From Jannaschia pagri (lineage in GTDB: Bacteria > Pseudomonadota > Alphaproteobacteria > Rhodobacterales > Rhodobacteraceae), in the NCBI RefSeq assembly GCF_019655435.1, contig NZ_BPFH01000003.1, positions 124,001-188,000 of the forward strand: 64,000 bases of DNA. Direction: 5' to 3'. This document shows, one piece after another, positions 15,938-20,271 of this stretch. Each line of letters starts with the position of its first letter. Positions within the stretch are counted from its first letter, which is position 1. The position numbers and the translations under genes are program-made. Under the pieces are notes generated by a model. It was not told where the DNA came from. It ran no database searches and saw only the letters and a program-made list of their open reading frames with translations.

Positions 15938-16402
15938 CTATTCGGACAAACGCGCCAATGCAGGACCGTCTAACGTGTAATGGGTCTTGCCGTCGTCTTC
16001 GGCGCCCAAACGCCCATAGAACGCCCGCGCGCCGGTCTCTCCCGTCTCCCACCGCAGGGTGTCGCAGCCCTGGTCCAAGGCGGTGCGCGCCAGTTGCTGC
16101 ATCAACGCGCGGCCCGCGCCGGTGCCGCGGGCGGCCTCGGTCACGAAAAGCTCTTTGAGATACAGGGCAAACCCATTGCCCGCCGGGAAGACCCGCATCC
16201 AGCAAGTGAATCCAACGGGCAGATCCCCCGCCCAAGCGATATGGGCGAAGGTCCCGAACGGCGCGGCGAGTTCCCTGAGAATGAGCGCCTCCACCGTCTC
16301 GCGGTCGGCCGGCCCCTCGTCGTAATGGGCCAGACACGCCCGATAGAGCGTCAAGAACGCATCAGGCGCATCCGGGTCGTGGGGCCGGACCGTGACGGTC
16401 AC
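15938..16402 (-). CDS. GNAT family N-acetyltransferase
   Basis: This 154-residue GNAT-fold protein has the acetyl-CoA pyrophosphate loop as [18 protein letters not shown] near residues 88-105 and a C-terminal YGRLGAE segment. The acceptor is unknown. The GTG start overlaps the leuB stop as GTGA, so it is translated by coupling with leuB. Confidence 0.87.
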
Positions 16403-17502
16403 GCGGCGTCGAGCGCCGCCAGGATCGCGTCGCCCATCTCACCGGTCGAGACGGGCGTCCCGCCCTCGGGACCCATCAGATCGGCCGTGCGCACGCCATC
16501 GGCCAGCACCTTCTGCACGGCACCCTCCAGCAGATCAGCGTTCGCGCCTTCGTCAAAGGAATAGCGCAGCGCCATGGCGAAGCTGAGGATACAAGCGATG
16601 GGGTTGGCCTTGCCCTGTCCCGTGATGTCGGGGGCGGAGCCGTGGACCGGCTCATAGAGCGCTTTGGGGCGCCCGTTCCCCATCGGCAGGCCGAGGGACG
16701 CCGAGGGCAGCATCCCCAGCGAGCCGGTCAGCATGGCCGCGCAATCGGACAGCACATCGCCGAACAGGTTGTCGGTCACGATCACGTCGAACTGCTTGGG
16801 CGCGCGGACCAGCTGCATGGCGCCGTTGTCGGCGTACATGTGCGACAGCTCCACCTCGGGGTATTCGGCGTCATGGATCTCCTGGACGACGTCGCGCCAC
16901 AGGATGCCCGATTCCATGACGTTGGCCTTCTCCATGGAGCAGACCTTGTTGCCGCGCCGTTTGGCCAGCTCAAACGCAGAGCGCGCCACGCGGGCGATTT
17001 CCGACTCGGTGTAGCGCTGGGTGTTCACGCCGACCCGCTCATTGCCTTCCTTGTGGATGCCGCGCGGCTCACCAAAGTAGACGCCGGAGGTCAGCTCCCG
17101 CACGATCATGATGTCGAGGCCCGCGACCACGTCCTTTTTCAAGGACGAAAAGTCGGCCAGCGCGTCAAAGCACTGGGCCGGACGCAGGTTGGAGAACAGG
17201 TCCATTTCCTTGCGCAAGCGCAGCAGGCCCCGCTCCGGCTTCACCGCGAAATCCAGATCGTCGTACTTCGGCCCACCGACCGCGCCCAGCAGGACGGCGT
17301 CGACCTCTTGGGCTTTGGCCATGGTGTCGTCGTGCAGGGGCGTGCCGTGTTTGTCGTAAGCCGCACCGCCCACCAGGTCCTCGGACACGTCGAACACCAG
17401 GTCCTTATTGGCACCGAACCAATCGATGACGCGCCGCACCTGGGCCATGACTTCGGGGCCAATGCCGTCGCCCGGCAGGATCAGCAGAGAGGGGTTCGCC
17501 AT
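16399..17502 (-). CDS. leuB: 3-isopropylmalate dehydrogenase
   Basis: This 367-residue NAD-dependent beta-decarboxylating dehydrogenase oxidises 3-isopropylmalate in leucine synthesis. The family signatures are clear: [14 protein letters not shown] at the N-terminus, [14 protein letters not shown], and the cofactor/metal segment [20 protein letters not shown]. Length is normal. leuD is 2.2 kb away on the same strand with two other genes between, so leuB and leuD do not form a tight unit here. leuC is not in the window. Confidence 0.96.
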
Positions 17503-17559: not shown

Positions 17560-18705
17560 TCAAGGAAGCGCAAGGTCCACCCAGACCAGGCGCCCCCGGC
17601 TGGCCGTCGCGACCACCTCGGCCAGGGGGTCACCGGGCGCGGGCCAGACCACGCCGCTGTCCAGCACGCGCAAGGCCTGGGACGGAAGGATGTAATCCAC
17701 ACGCAGTGGACCGGGCCCCTCAAAGTCCACCGTATCCAGCGCCGGATCACCGCGATGCCCCAGACCGCCGCCGCCCGCGCCGCGCGGCTCCGGGTCCTGC
17801 AAGGCGGGGTGGTCTAACAGATCTATCATGACCTGGTGCAGCCCGTCGCCATCTTGGGGGTCAATATTCGACCGGCCCAAAACAACGGGCAGCGGCGCCT
17901 GGCTGACAAGGTCCGCGACAAAGCGCAGTTCATCGGCATTGCGCCGACCATTGCGATCCTCCGGCCCATCGAAAACCGGGGTATTGGCGTTCATCGTGAT
18001 CAGCCTCAGTCGCGTCTGCCCGAGGGTCAAGGGCACGACCCATTGTGCAACAGACGCCAGGGGGACGACCCCTGCGGCCTCGACCGGCAAAACATCCGCC
18101 GGGGGGGCGCTGTGATCCGCCCAAAGGTCCGCGCTGTGATCTTCGACCGTCCCAAGGGGCAGCCGCGACAACAGCGCCATGCCGCCATCGCCCGTAAACC
18201 GCCCATAGCCGAGGGCGTCGCGCCCTTCGCCCAAACGACCGTTTCCATCCAGATCGAAACCGCTCGGCACGCCCGCATTGGGACGGCGTGACACCCTATG
18301 GGCGTAGTCCAGCCCCCTCTCATCCAAGGCCGCTTGCAACGCCGACAGCGCAGCATCGCCATAGTCCCAATCCACATCGAGCAGCAGCAACACGTCTGGG
18401 CGGGCGTGGGCGATCACATCCAGTACGGCCAGAACCTGCGGGTCGCCGCGCTCAATATCGCGCAGCAGGAGCGCGGGGCCTTTGCGGCTCAACTCCGTGT
18501 GATAGGTCGCAATTCGAACCTTGCTTGGGCCCTGGGCCAGTGCCGGCCCGGCGCCGAGACAGGCGCCCGCAATCAGGCCGGCAAAAAGGCAGGCACCTCG
18601 TCGCCAACCTCTTCGCCATAGCGACGGCGCTTGCGGGAGATCATCAGAGCCAAACGGCGCATAGCGATTCCACGCAGGAAGAGCGAGGCAGGCAAGAACG
18701 CCCAT
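17560..18705 (-). CDS. Endonuclease/exonuclease/phosphatase-fold protein with altered active site
   Basis: This 381-residue protein has the EEP fold of a bacterial subfamily recognised by FDLDGNGRLGEGRDA, GRFTGDGGMALLSRLPLG, FDGPEDRNGRRNADE and GHRGDPALDTVDF. In active relatives the later motifs should read roughly GDxN and SRHRLVW. Here they read LGRSNIDP and SRGRLVW, so a catalytic Asp and the catalytic His appear replaced. A hydrophobic signal-like segment (ACLFAGLIAGACLGAG, about residues 38-53, then PALAQ) suggests export. The only in-frame ATG (18705) lies 133 bases inside the upstream gene and would put about 37 residues before that segment. The true start is therefore uncertain. Confidence 0.78.
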   Translation of the reverse strand: MGVLACLALPAWNRYAPFGSDDLPQAPSLWRRGWRRGACLFAGLIAGACLGAGPALAQGPSKVRIATYHTELSRKGPALLLRDIERGDPQVLAVLDVIAHARPDVLLLLDVDWDYGDAALSALQAALDERGLDYAHRVSRRPNAGVPSGFDLDGNGRLGEGRDALGYGRFTGDGGMALLSRLPLGTVEDHSADLWADHSAPPADVLPVEAAGVVPLASVAQWVVPLTLGQTRLRLITMNANTPVFDGPEDRNGRRNADELRFVADLVSQAPLPVVLGRSNIDPQDGDGLHQVMIDLLDHPALQDPEPRGAGGGGLGHRGDPALDTVDFEGPGPLRVDYILPSQALRVLDSGVVWPAPGDPLAEVVATASRGRLVWVDLALP

Positions 18706-19418
18706 AGGGACATCGTCCAGACAAACAGCAGATCGCTTTCAAACATCGACACGCCATATGAGTGGGCGATGAAGTACGCGAAGGGTGGCGTCAGGTATGG
18801 CAGGGCGAGTCCTAACAAAATGTTAATGGTCCCGTCGCGATTGAGTCGCTTGACCACATCCGCCCCTGCGGTCGGGTCGAACGTCGGCAGGTTCACCCAA
18901 ACGTTGAACCGGCCCGTTGGTGACGGCCAGTTCTTGAGCCGGATCATGATCGCAAAGACGGTCAGCCCCACGAGCGACACGAGATACGCGATGCCCGCAG
19001 CGATCCGCACCAACTGCGCCTGAACCACGGTCGTCCCTTCTGGCATCAGCCACAGGATCAGGCGCACAGGGCTAAAGGCGAAGTCGACCGACTGCCCCAA
19101 AAGCAGCCCAACTGCCTGGATGAGGCGGGCAAGGGCCGAGGGTGTTTCGATCCCGCGCATCGCCAACGCAATCAAGACGAGCGAGACCAACAAAACCCCG
19201 AACCGCACTCGGTTAAAAGGCGGCGCGTCCCGAAACTCGATCAGACCCGGATACACGGCGGCGTATTCGATAAGGACGAAGAGCGCTGCAAATATGGCAA
19301 TCAGAACGATCGTGTCCGCCACCTGAGGAGAGATATCAGGGAGCAGGAGGGATGGCGCCAAGACCATCGCAACCATTAAAAGCGCACGAATGCACGCGCC
19401 AGGAAGCCGTGAAATCAC
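18573..19418 (-). CDS. Conserved membrane protein, unknown function
   Basis: This 281-residue protein has seven or so hydrophobic segments and a basic C-terminal tail (MISRKRRRYGEE). No transporter or enzyme motif is recognised. The GTG start has GAGGAT about 10 bases upstream, and an ATG 42 bases later is an alternative. The C-terminal coding region overlaps the predicted start of the downstream EEP-fold gene, which suggests cotranscription. Confidence 0.75.
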   Translation of the reverse strand: MISRLPGACIRALLMVAMVLAPSLLLPDISPQVADTIVLIAIFAALFVLIEYAAVYPGLIEFRDAPPFNRVRFGVLLVSLVLIALAMRGIETPSALARLIQAVGLLLGQSVDFAFSPVRLILWLMPEGTTVVQAQLVRIAAGIAYLVSLVGLTVFAIMIRLKNWPSPTGRFNVWVNLPTFDPTAGADVVKRLNRDGTINILLGLALPYLTPPFAYFIAHSYGVSMFESDLLFVWTMSLWAFLPASLFLRGIAMRRLALMISRKRRRYGEEVGDEVPAFLPA

Positions 19419-19665: not shown

Positions 19666-20271
19666 CTAAACCCAGGGACGCGCCTGGGACATGCCCGCCT
19701 CATAGGTATCGATGGACGCCGCCTTCTCCATGGTCAGACCGATGTCATCCAACCCGTTGAGCAGGCAGTGCTTCTTGAACGCATCGACCTCAAACCCATA
19801 GGTCGCGCCGTCGGCGCCGGTGACCGTCTGGTCCTCCAGATTGATCGTGATGCGCGCATTCTCGCCATTTTCCGCATCGGCCATCAGCGCGTCCACCTGA
19901 TCCTGTGGCAAGACGATGGGCAGGATACCGTTCTTGAAACAGTTGTTATAGAAGATGTCCGCAAAGCTGGGCGCGATCACCGCGCGGATGCCGAAGTCCA
20001 GCAGGGCCCAAGGCGCATGTTCCCGCGAAGAGCCGCAGCCGAAGTTGTCGCCTGCCACGATGATCTGCGCCTCACGGTAGGCGGGCTTGTTCAGAACGAA
20101 ATCCGGGATCTCGGAGCCATCATCGGCATACCGCATTTCGTCGAACAGGTTCACACCCAGGCCAGACCGTTTGATCGTCTTCAGGAACTGCTTGGGGATG
20201 ATCATGTCCGTATCGACGTTGATCAGCGGCAGGGGGGCGGCGATGCCTGTGAGGGTCTCGAACTTGTCCAT
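19666..20271 (-). CDS. leuD: 3-isopropylmalate dehydratase small subunit
   Basis: This 201-residue swivel-domain subunit partners LeuC in isomerising 2- to 3-isopropylmalate. Signatures are [18 protein letters not shown] near residue 18 and [20 protein letters not shown] near residues 72-92. Length is normal for the bacterial small subunit. It is 27 bases downstream of the DUF4198 gene and may be cotranscribed with it, although their functions are unrelated. leuC is absent from the window. Confidence 0.96.

Follow-up and report, generated by a model that had tools for sequence, protein, structure and literature searches.

A probable EEP-fold pseudoenzyme in Jannaschia pagri, encoded beside leuB and overlapping a membrane-protein gene

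Main finding

A gene of Jannaschia pagri (17560..18705, minus strand, in the window, that is, the whole stretch of 64,000 nucleotides of contig NZ_BPFH01000003.1 that was analysed) codes for a protein of the EEP superfamily that keeps the fold but has lost most of the catalytic residues. The losses are shared by a whole clade, the genus, and the gene stays at one locus, is held under purifying selection and starts at a conserved codon embedded in the neighbouring gene. The reading that we favour, and that we hold to be reasonably probable, is that of a pseudoenzyme made stepwise at a fixed locus, completed in the genus and now working by binding, probably with the membrane protein encoded next to it. 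Such a protein would be inactive and exported, and would bind a ligand in partnership with that neighbour.

An EEP fold in an open frame

The frame is open over 381 codons plus the stop, as the preliminary description of this DNA had stated, and its product matches the Pfam profile PF03372 (Exo_endo_phos) with 61.5 bits and an E value of 1.3e-16, for a cut-off of 24.5. The EEP-fold domain, supported by the AlphaFold2 model and its PDB matches, comprises 318 residues from RIATYHTEL to the C-terminal end (17563..18516, minus strand). Residues are numbered here within the domain, residue 1 being the R of RIATYHTEL; adding 63 gives the residue of the complete ORF.

The domain was modelled from an alignment of 133 sequences, in which L016 was corrected and from which L044, L055, L119, L136, L152, and L163 were excluded; the model has a mean pLDDT of 95.3 and a pTM of 0.93. 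Its top structural matches in the PDB (Foldseek, VIA-align 2) are EEP proteins: first 4ruw (Z 22.4 over 247 residues, 21% identity), then DNase I (1atn_D, Z 21.2, 235 residues aligned), TDP2 (Z 20.8), and APE1 (Z 20.0), with nocturnin also matched. High among them, too, is 9nb9_E, a chain of a complex with actin and, apparently, DNase I in its title. The scaffold of the window protein is therefore intact, and the profile match together with the DNase I-like fold (Z 20-22 to DNase I, TDP2, and APE1) places it in the EEP superfamily PF03372, in agreement with the original assignment. A sequence search of the PDB with the window protein gave no match, and a profile search gave a single weak one (3teb, E 0.002).

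Ahead of the domain lies a hydrophobic segment, CLFAGLIAGACLGAGPALA (18535..18591, minus strand), and a hydrophobic stretch also precedes the domain in the homologous rows that we inspected. Judged by eye and by hydropathy, this is a probable signal peptide core or membrane anchor, and the protein is probably exported or anchored in the membrane.

Active-site residues of the window protein

We compared the domain with homologue rows at the catalytic motif positions, which we take to be those of DNase I and APE1. All coordinates that follow are on the minus strand. The motif-1 Asn (residue 6, 18499..18501) is replaced by His and the metal-binding Glu (residue 47, 18376..18378) by Asp; a further His (residue 158, 18043..18045) has become Gln. 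The catalytic His (residue 176, 17989..17991), presumably at the position of DNase I His134, is Asn, in MNANTP ahead of FDGPED. The Asp of GDxN (residue 215, 17872..17874) is Arg, the site reading GRSN (residues 214-217), and the Asp-His of SDHRLVW (residues 307-308, 17593..17598) is Arg-Gly, giving SRGRLVW; positions 17593-17595 read ccc on the plus strand, so that the Gly codon is GGG. The GRSN site, the SRGRLVW end with its GGG codon, and the Asn before FDGPED had all been quoted correctly at the outset. The form then given as expected, SRHRLVW, turns out to be itself derived, the nine outgroup rows introduced below all having Asp-His at this site. The seven core positions (47, 176, 215, 217, 274, 307, and 308) thus read Asp, Asn, Arg, Asn, Asp, Arg, and Gly and, counting the motif-1 Asn with them, two of eight catalytic positions are kept in comparison with the outgroup homologues.

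Nine outgroup rows (L065-L073), homologues from beyond the family that the phylum search itself selected, without regard to residue state, keep the seven core residues in 9/9. In all, 13 rows lack the neighbours of the locus described below; they keep Glu in 11/12, His176 in 12/13, Asp215 and Asp307 in 11 each, and Asn217, Asp274, and His308 in 13/13 each. A canonical set of 15 rows was also assembled from the nine outgroup rows, two unlinked rows of the family (L114, L132), and four linked rows (L151, L159, L163, and L128); as it is defined by possession of the seven core residues, their invariance in it holds by construction, and the independent comparison is that with the nine outgroup and 13 unlinked rows. 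His158 is excluded from this definition, yet it is His in 15/15 canonical rows. Residues 152 and 154, Arg and Ser in the canonical rows, are Pro and Ala in the window.

Active homologues carrying the same GRSN and SRG residues had been named as grounds against the initial reading; this objection was not borne out, as none of the 13 unlinked rows shows Arg in place of the GDxN Asp and none is without the C-terminal His, it being kept in mind that, to our knowledge, none of them is biochemically characterised and that we infer their active status from their residues.

That the window protein is a paralogue of an intact copy in the same genome was ruled out, as no second match to it appears at E 10. 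The J. pagri genome has eight places that match PF03372, and the other seven keep GDxN and SDH in 7/7. Second EEP copies, carried by larger ORFs, were seen in three other genomes of the family (L172, L173, L174, and L175); they keep HPTPP and GDxN in 4/4, and SDH was found in 2/4 with the pattern used.

Losses shared by the genus

The gene was found in 20/20 Jannaschia genomes searched, with one match each and no internal stops, and the 20 rows form one clade (SH-aLRT 99 on the 161-row tree). Jannaschia sp. Os4 is among the members, and the domain sequence of L021 is identical to that of L008. In all 20 rows the metal Glu is Asp and the Asp of GDxN is Arg. The catalytic His is likewise replaced in 20/20 (Ala 14, Asn 3, Ser 3), and so is the C-terminal His (Gly 14, Ala 4, Ser 2). 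The motif-1 Asn and the Asp of the C-terminal SDH dyad are also gone from 20/20, and Gln stands at position 158 in 20/20. The Asn of GxN (Asn217) and the Asp of VDY (Asp274) are present in 20/20. A sequencing or frame error as the cause of the substitutions was ruled out by this common state of 20 genomes without internal stops.

On these residues, the window protein should not be classed as a catalytic EEP phosphoesterase. Some metal binding may survive, because the GxN Asn and the VDY Asp are kept and the change from Glu to Asp is conservative. New residues, too, became fixed: eight of them (Asp47, Asp110, Pro144, Pro152, Ala154, Gln158, Leu197, and Arg215) occur in at least 95% of the genus and in less than 25% of the other derived linked rows. 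The scaffold loops, for their part, have many residues that do not vary within the genus.

Residue loss across the family at one locus

Matches to the EEP protein at E 1e-20 or better are present in 345 of 394 family genomes (393 genera), a few of the 345 being unlinked canonical relatives (L114, L132). The class search matched 2/142 genomes, both from the same family, and the phylum search 17/200, 8 of them from the same family. Sequences were read from part of the 345 matching genomes, the rows being drawn from the best-scoring loci, from 40 listed regions, from 60 genomes chosen among those with lower scores, from named records, and from the phylum search. Removal of five identical sequences reduced 171 loci to 166 distinct rows; 133 linked rows lie outside the genus. 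Five truncated rows (L130, L137, L141, L142, and L143) were excluded from the tree and from the counts on 149 rows, and the C-terminus of L135 is poorly aligned.

In 153/166 rows, leuD, leuB, or the membrane-protein gene lies near the EEP gene within the stretch read. Among the 149 untruncated linked rows, genus included, the catalytic residues are retained very unequally: Glu and Asp307 in 8 each, Asp215 in 49, the motif-1 Asn in 66, His176 in 67, Asp274 in 109, His308 in 124, and Asn217 in 145. Glu, His176, Asp215, Asp307, and His308 are all absent together in 24/149, namely the 20 genus rows plus L027, L135, L146, and L164. The preliminary description had overlooked that most linked relatives are already without the metal Glu and the second Asp; the window protein is therefore the end point of a trend of residue loss that runs through the family. 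As a side observation, L146 and L164, from other genera, also have Arg at the GDxN Asp and have lost the C-terminal His, with SRGRLVW in L146; this looks like convergent loss.

Four linked rows (L151, L159, L163, and L128) keep 8/8 residues and branch near the base of the tree. The change therefore seems to have occurred in place. By parsimony on the 161-row tree, Asp307 requires 2 changes, Glu 5, His308 6, Asp215 31, and His176 34; the larger of these counts are rough, because 68/158 inner branches have support below 80. In the 161 rows, His176 and Asp215 are both absent in 75, both kept in 52, with His alone in 26 and Asp alone in 8; an independent-pairs test on the starred branches gave no significant correlation of their loss (median p 0.25 and 0.5).

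Reduced sets of catalytic residues are common among the relatives: 41/149 linked rows retain His176, Asp215, and His308 together, for only 8 with Glu. This speaks for the first of the alternatives to be weighed, namely, that the window protein has remained an enzyme but with its site rearranged. Asp47, Asn217, and Asp274 would then hold a metal, Arg215 would stabilise a phosphate, and His236 would perhaps help, which would make the protein a changed, slow or narrow hydrolase or transferase; we consider this unlikely. Asp47, Arg215, Asn217, and Asp274 are invariant in 20/20 genus rows, unlike what random decay would leave. Another His or Asp filling the site had also been raised in the preliminary description. 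Sought column by column in the aligned sequences of the genus, no replacement His reaches 19/20, which counts against a rearranged enzyme, but the nearest, His236, is present in 18/20, the window included, and Asp47 is fixed at the former Glu position. His158, His176, and His308 are, moreover, all replaced in the window, and a positive Arg occupies the position of the catalytic Asp.

Selection on the gene

Purifying selection is visible within the genus: in six genus pairs, dN/dS (Nei-Gojobori) of the EEP gene is 0.15-0.20, values that are rough for the four of six pairs with dS above 1. In four pairs of relatives, where seven of the eight row places keep His176 and Asp215, it is 0.20-0.25, and in a canonical pair 0.19; the pair L051/L075 gives 0.10 at a dS of 2.4, and L034/L083 was not computable, dS being saturated. 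For the same six genus pairs, the membrane-protein gene gives 0.10-0.25 and leuB 0.03-0.13. The EEP gene is, thus, constrained about like its relatives and less than leuB, with no visible decay; its constraint is only moderate, because the dN/dS of leuB is lower. Two marks of a pseudoenzyme are found here, catalytic motifs absent from a conserved homologue and retention under purifying selection.

That the need for catalysis vanished and the gene is now being lost is, in our opinion, very improbable, the last in order of the alternatives. One would point, in its favour, to the catalytic columns of the derived linked rows outside the genus: those of the motif-1 Asn, Glu, His176, and Asp215 each vary more than 61-81% of all columns do, and the Asp307 column varies more than 47% of them, Asn217 and His308 being well conserved. 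Four genomes, besides, have leuD and the membrane-protein gene with no EEP gene in the stretch read. Against this, the gene is present without stops in every genus genome, its dN/dS is not above that of most relatives tested, the three closest genus pairs show 0, 0, and 2 gap columns, and the new residues are fixed. Decay or sequencing error is, thus, unlikely because the losses are common to 20/20 members of one clade and because of the low dN/dS. The preliminary description had drawn from the residue loss either a non-enzymatic role or ongoing decay, and had proposed aligning close relatives and computing dN/dS; with the Glu, both His, and the GDxN Asp lost throughout the clade and selection maintained, the non-enzymatic branch is favoured and that of decay is not upheld.

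Neighbouring genes and an embedded start codon

Directly downstream of the EEP gene is a gene for a protein of 367 aa (16399..17502, minus strand), which from its sequence we take to be leuB, and upstream one for 201 aa (19666..20271, minus strand), presumably leuD. In at least 87/166 rows, leuB is downstream on the same strand within the stretch read, and leuD is a neighbour in most rows with enough flank. Upstream of the EEP gene, and overlapping it, is a gene for a membrane protein of 281 aa (18573..19418, minus strand) with eight helices (model pLDDT 86.6), found beside the EEP gene in 136/166 rows. This protein has no Pfam match over the cut-off and no NCBIfam match, and its model has no fold match in the PDB at E 0.001 or better. 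It carries strongly conserved motifs, FRDAPPFNR and FNVWxNLPTFDPTAG, and its gene adjoins leuD across the family.

With the ATG at 18703-18705 as the start of the EEP gene, the two genes overlap out of frame by 133 bases (18573..18705, minus strand). This ATG straddles two codons of the membrane-protein gene: its A is the wobble base of the first, and its TG opens a conserved Trp codon. In the alignment, the wobble base before that Trp is A in 103/136 loci; as a control, three other conserved Trp codons are preceded by A in 18/136, 2/135, and 7/136. In 99 of these 103 loci, no stop interrupts the frame between the embedded ATG and the EEP domain, and 58/99 have no other ATG, GTG, or TTG between the embedded ATG and the eighth codon before the domain, an alternative existing in the other 41. 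The last 43 codons of the membrane-protein gene are open in the EEP frame in 125/136 loci, compared with 716/1359 windows elsewhere in the gene. The conservation of the out-of-frame ATG in so many loci implies a start of the EEP gene some 130 bases within the neighbouring gene and supports the start at 18705 given initially; a CTG start overlapping the stop of the membrane-protein gene was ruled out once this ATG proved conserved. No extra synonymous constraint was found over the whole overlap (third-base identity 0.584 versus 0.564), and no Shine-Dalgarno-like run is obvious ahead of the embedded ATG in the window. The linked canonical rows L151 and L159 are without the embedded ATG site.

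The adjacency, the embedded start, and the co-occurrence of the genes suggest that the EEP protein probably works with the membrane protein. The membrane-protein gene is present in 9/10 genomes with the EEP gene and in 6/20 without it (Fisher p 0.005; the 20, some of them incomplete, are the listed ones among the 49 family genomes without the EEP gene, and it was these 20 that were searched for the membrane-protein gene). The same counts also hold what goes against a partnership, the membrane-protein gene without the EEP gene in those six genomes and the EEP gene without the membrane-protein gene in 1/10. In L184, L190, L191, and L192, leuD and the membrane-protein gene are found, but within the 3.8 kb read no EEP match falls below E 0.5; the EEP gene seems absent there rather than visibly broken.

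The same adjacency, conserved embedded start, and enriched co-occurrence, as well as the many invariant residues of the scaffold loops in the genus, would also suit a chiefly structural role, in which the EEP domain would cover the neighbouring membrane protein as a lid or serve as a subunit in its assembly, with an old site empty of ligand. This second alternative is, to our mind, less likely still than a rearranged enzyme: Arg215, Asp47, and Gln158 never vary within the genus, seemingly beyond the needs of a structural shell, and the membrane-protein gene persists in six genomes without its supposed lid.

A proposed route from enzyme to binding protein

The pseudoenzyme reading can be put as a series of steps. 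The locus would at first have held a metal-dependent EEP phosphoesterase of the ordinary kind. Its metal-binding Glu would have gone early in the family, as would the first residue of the Asp-His dyad; those catalytic His and Asp residues that were still left would have been replaced on the stem of the genus. Purifying selection would have kept the fold, two loops rich in Asp, Asn, and Gly (FDLDGNGRLGEGRD, FDGPEDRNGRRN), and a remodelled pocket (Arg215, Asp47, and Gln158). The protein would fold like DNase I and bind instead of cutting; what it holds, at the old active site or at the conserved loops, would be another protein or a ligand that is anionic or carries phosphate. Together with the membrane protein of the overlapping upstream gene, it would probably act on the periplasmic side.

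A bolder version, which we offer as a tentative and rather doubtful proposal, sees in this pair an unannotated membrane complex present throughout the Rhodobacteraceae. A DNase I-fold hydrolase would have been turned in place, step by step, into a ligand sensor, with Arg215, in the genus, as a fixed positive charge that replaces the metal and binds a phosphate-bearing ligand, and with signalling to the polytopic partner, the two genes being tied by the embedded start.

The Pfam-based label of endonuclease/exonuclease/phosphatase is probably wrong for the genus and doubtful for many linked relatives. At one chromosomal place, the same gene occurs in complete form in some genomes and partly or fully stripped in others; the route from enzyme to pseudoenzyme and the function that retains the protein can therefore be tested directly. 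Two further subjects emerge from the analysis: a membrane protein that the family conserves and that is so far uncharacterised, and a gene start within an overlap, which is likewise conserved.

Comparison with known systems

No paper on the window protein or on bacterial EEP pseudoenzymes was among the matches listed in our literature search, in which terms containing a slash could not be searched and some papers may have been missed. The fungal pseudonucleases of the Dis3/RNase II family offer a parallel: according to PMC8097288, inactive homologues evolved repeatedly and were retained. They resemble the present case as inactive, retained homologues of nucleases, and differ in belonging to another nuclease family (RNase II) and to fungi, and in acting as RNA-binding proteins.

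Within the EEP superfamily, DNase I, APE1, and TDP2 share the fold of the window protein across the whole domain, but the window protein lacks the catalytic Asn, Glu, His, Asp, and Asp-His of DNase I and APE1. The EEP protein of Beutenbergia cavernae (PDB 4ruw) is likened to it by fold alone. The canonical bacterial EEP proteins carry LLNEFDYD, HPTPPVFDG, GDLN, and SDHRLVW motifs: their domain is homologous and the GxG, FDGPEDRNG, and DYVLPS elements of the scaffold are shared, but they keep the seven core residues that define the set of 15, and the window protein keeps two.
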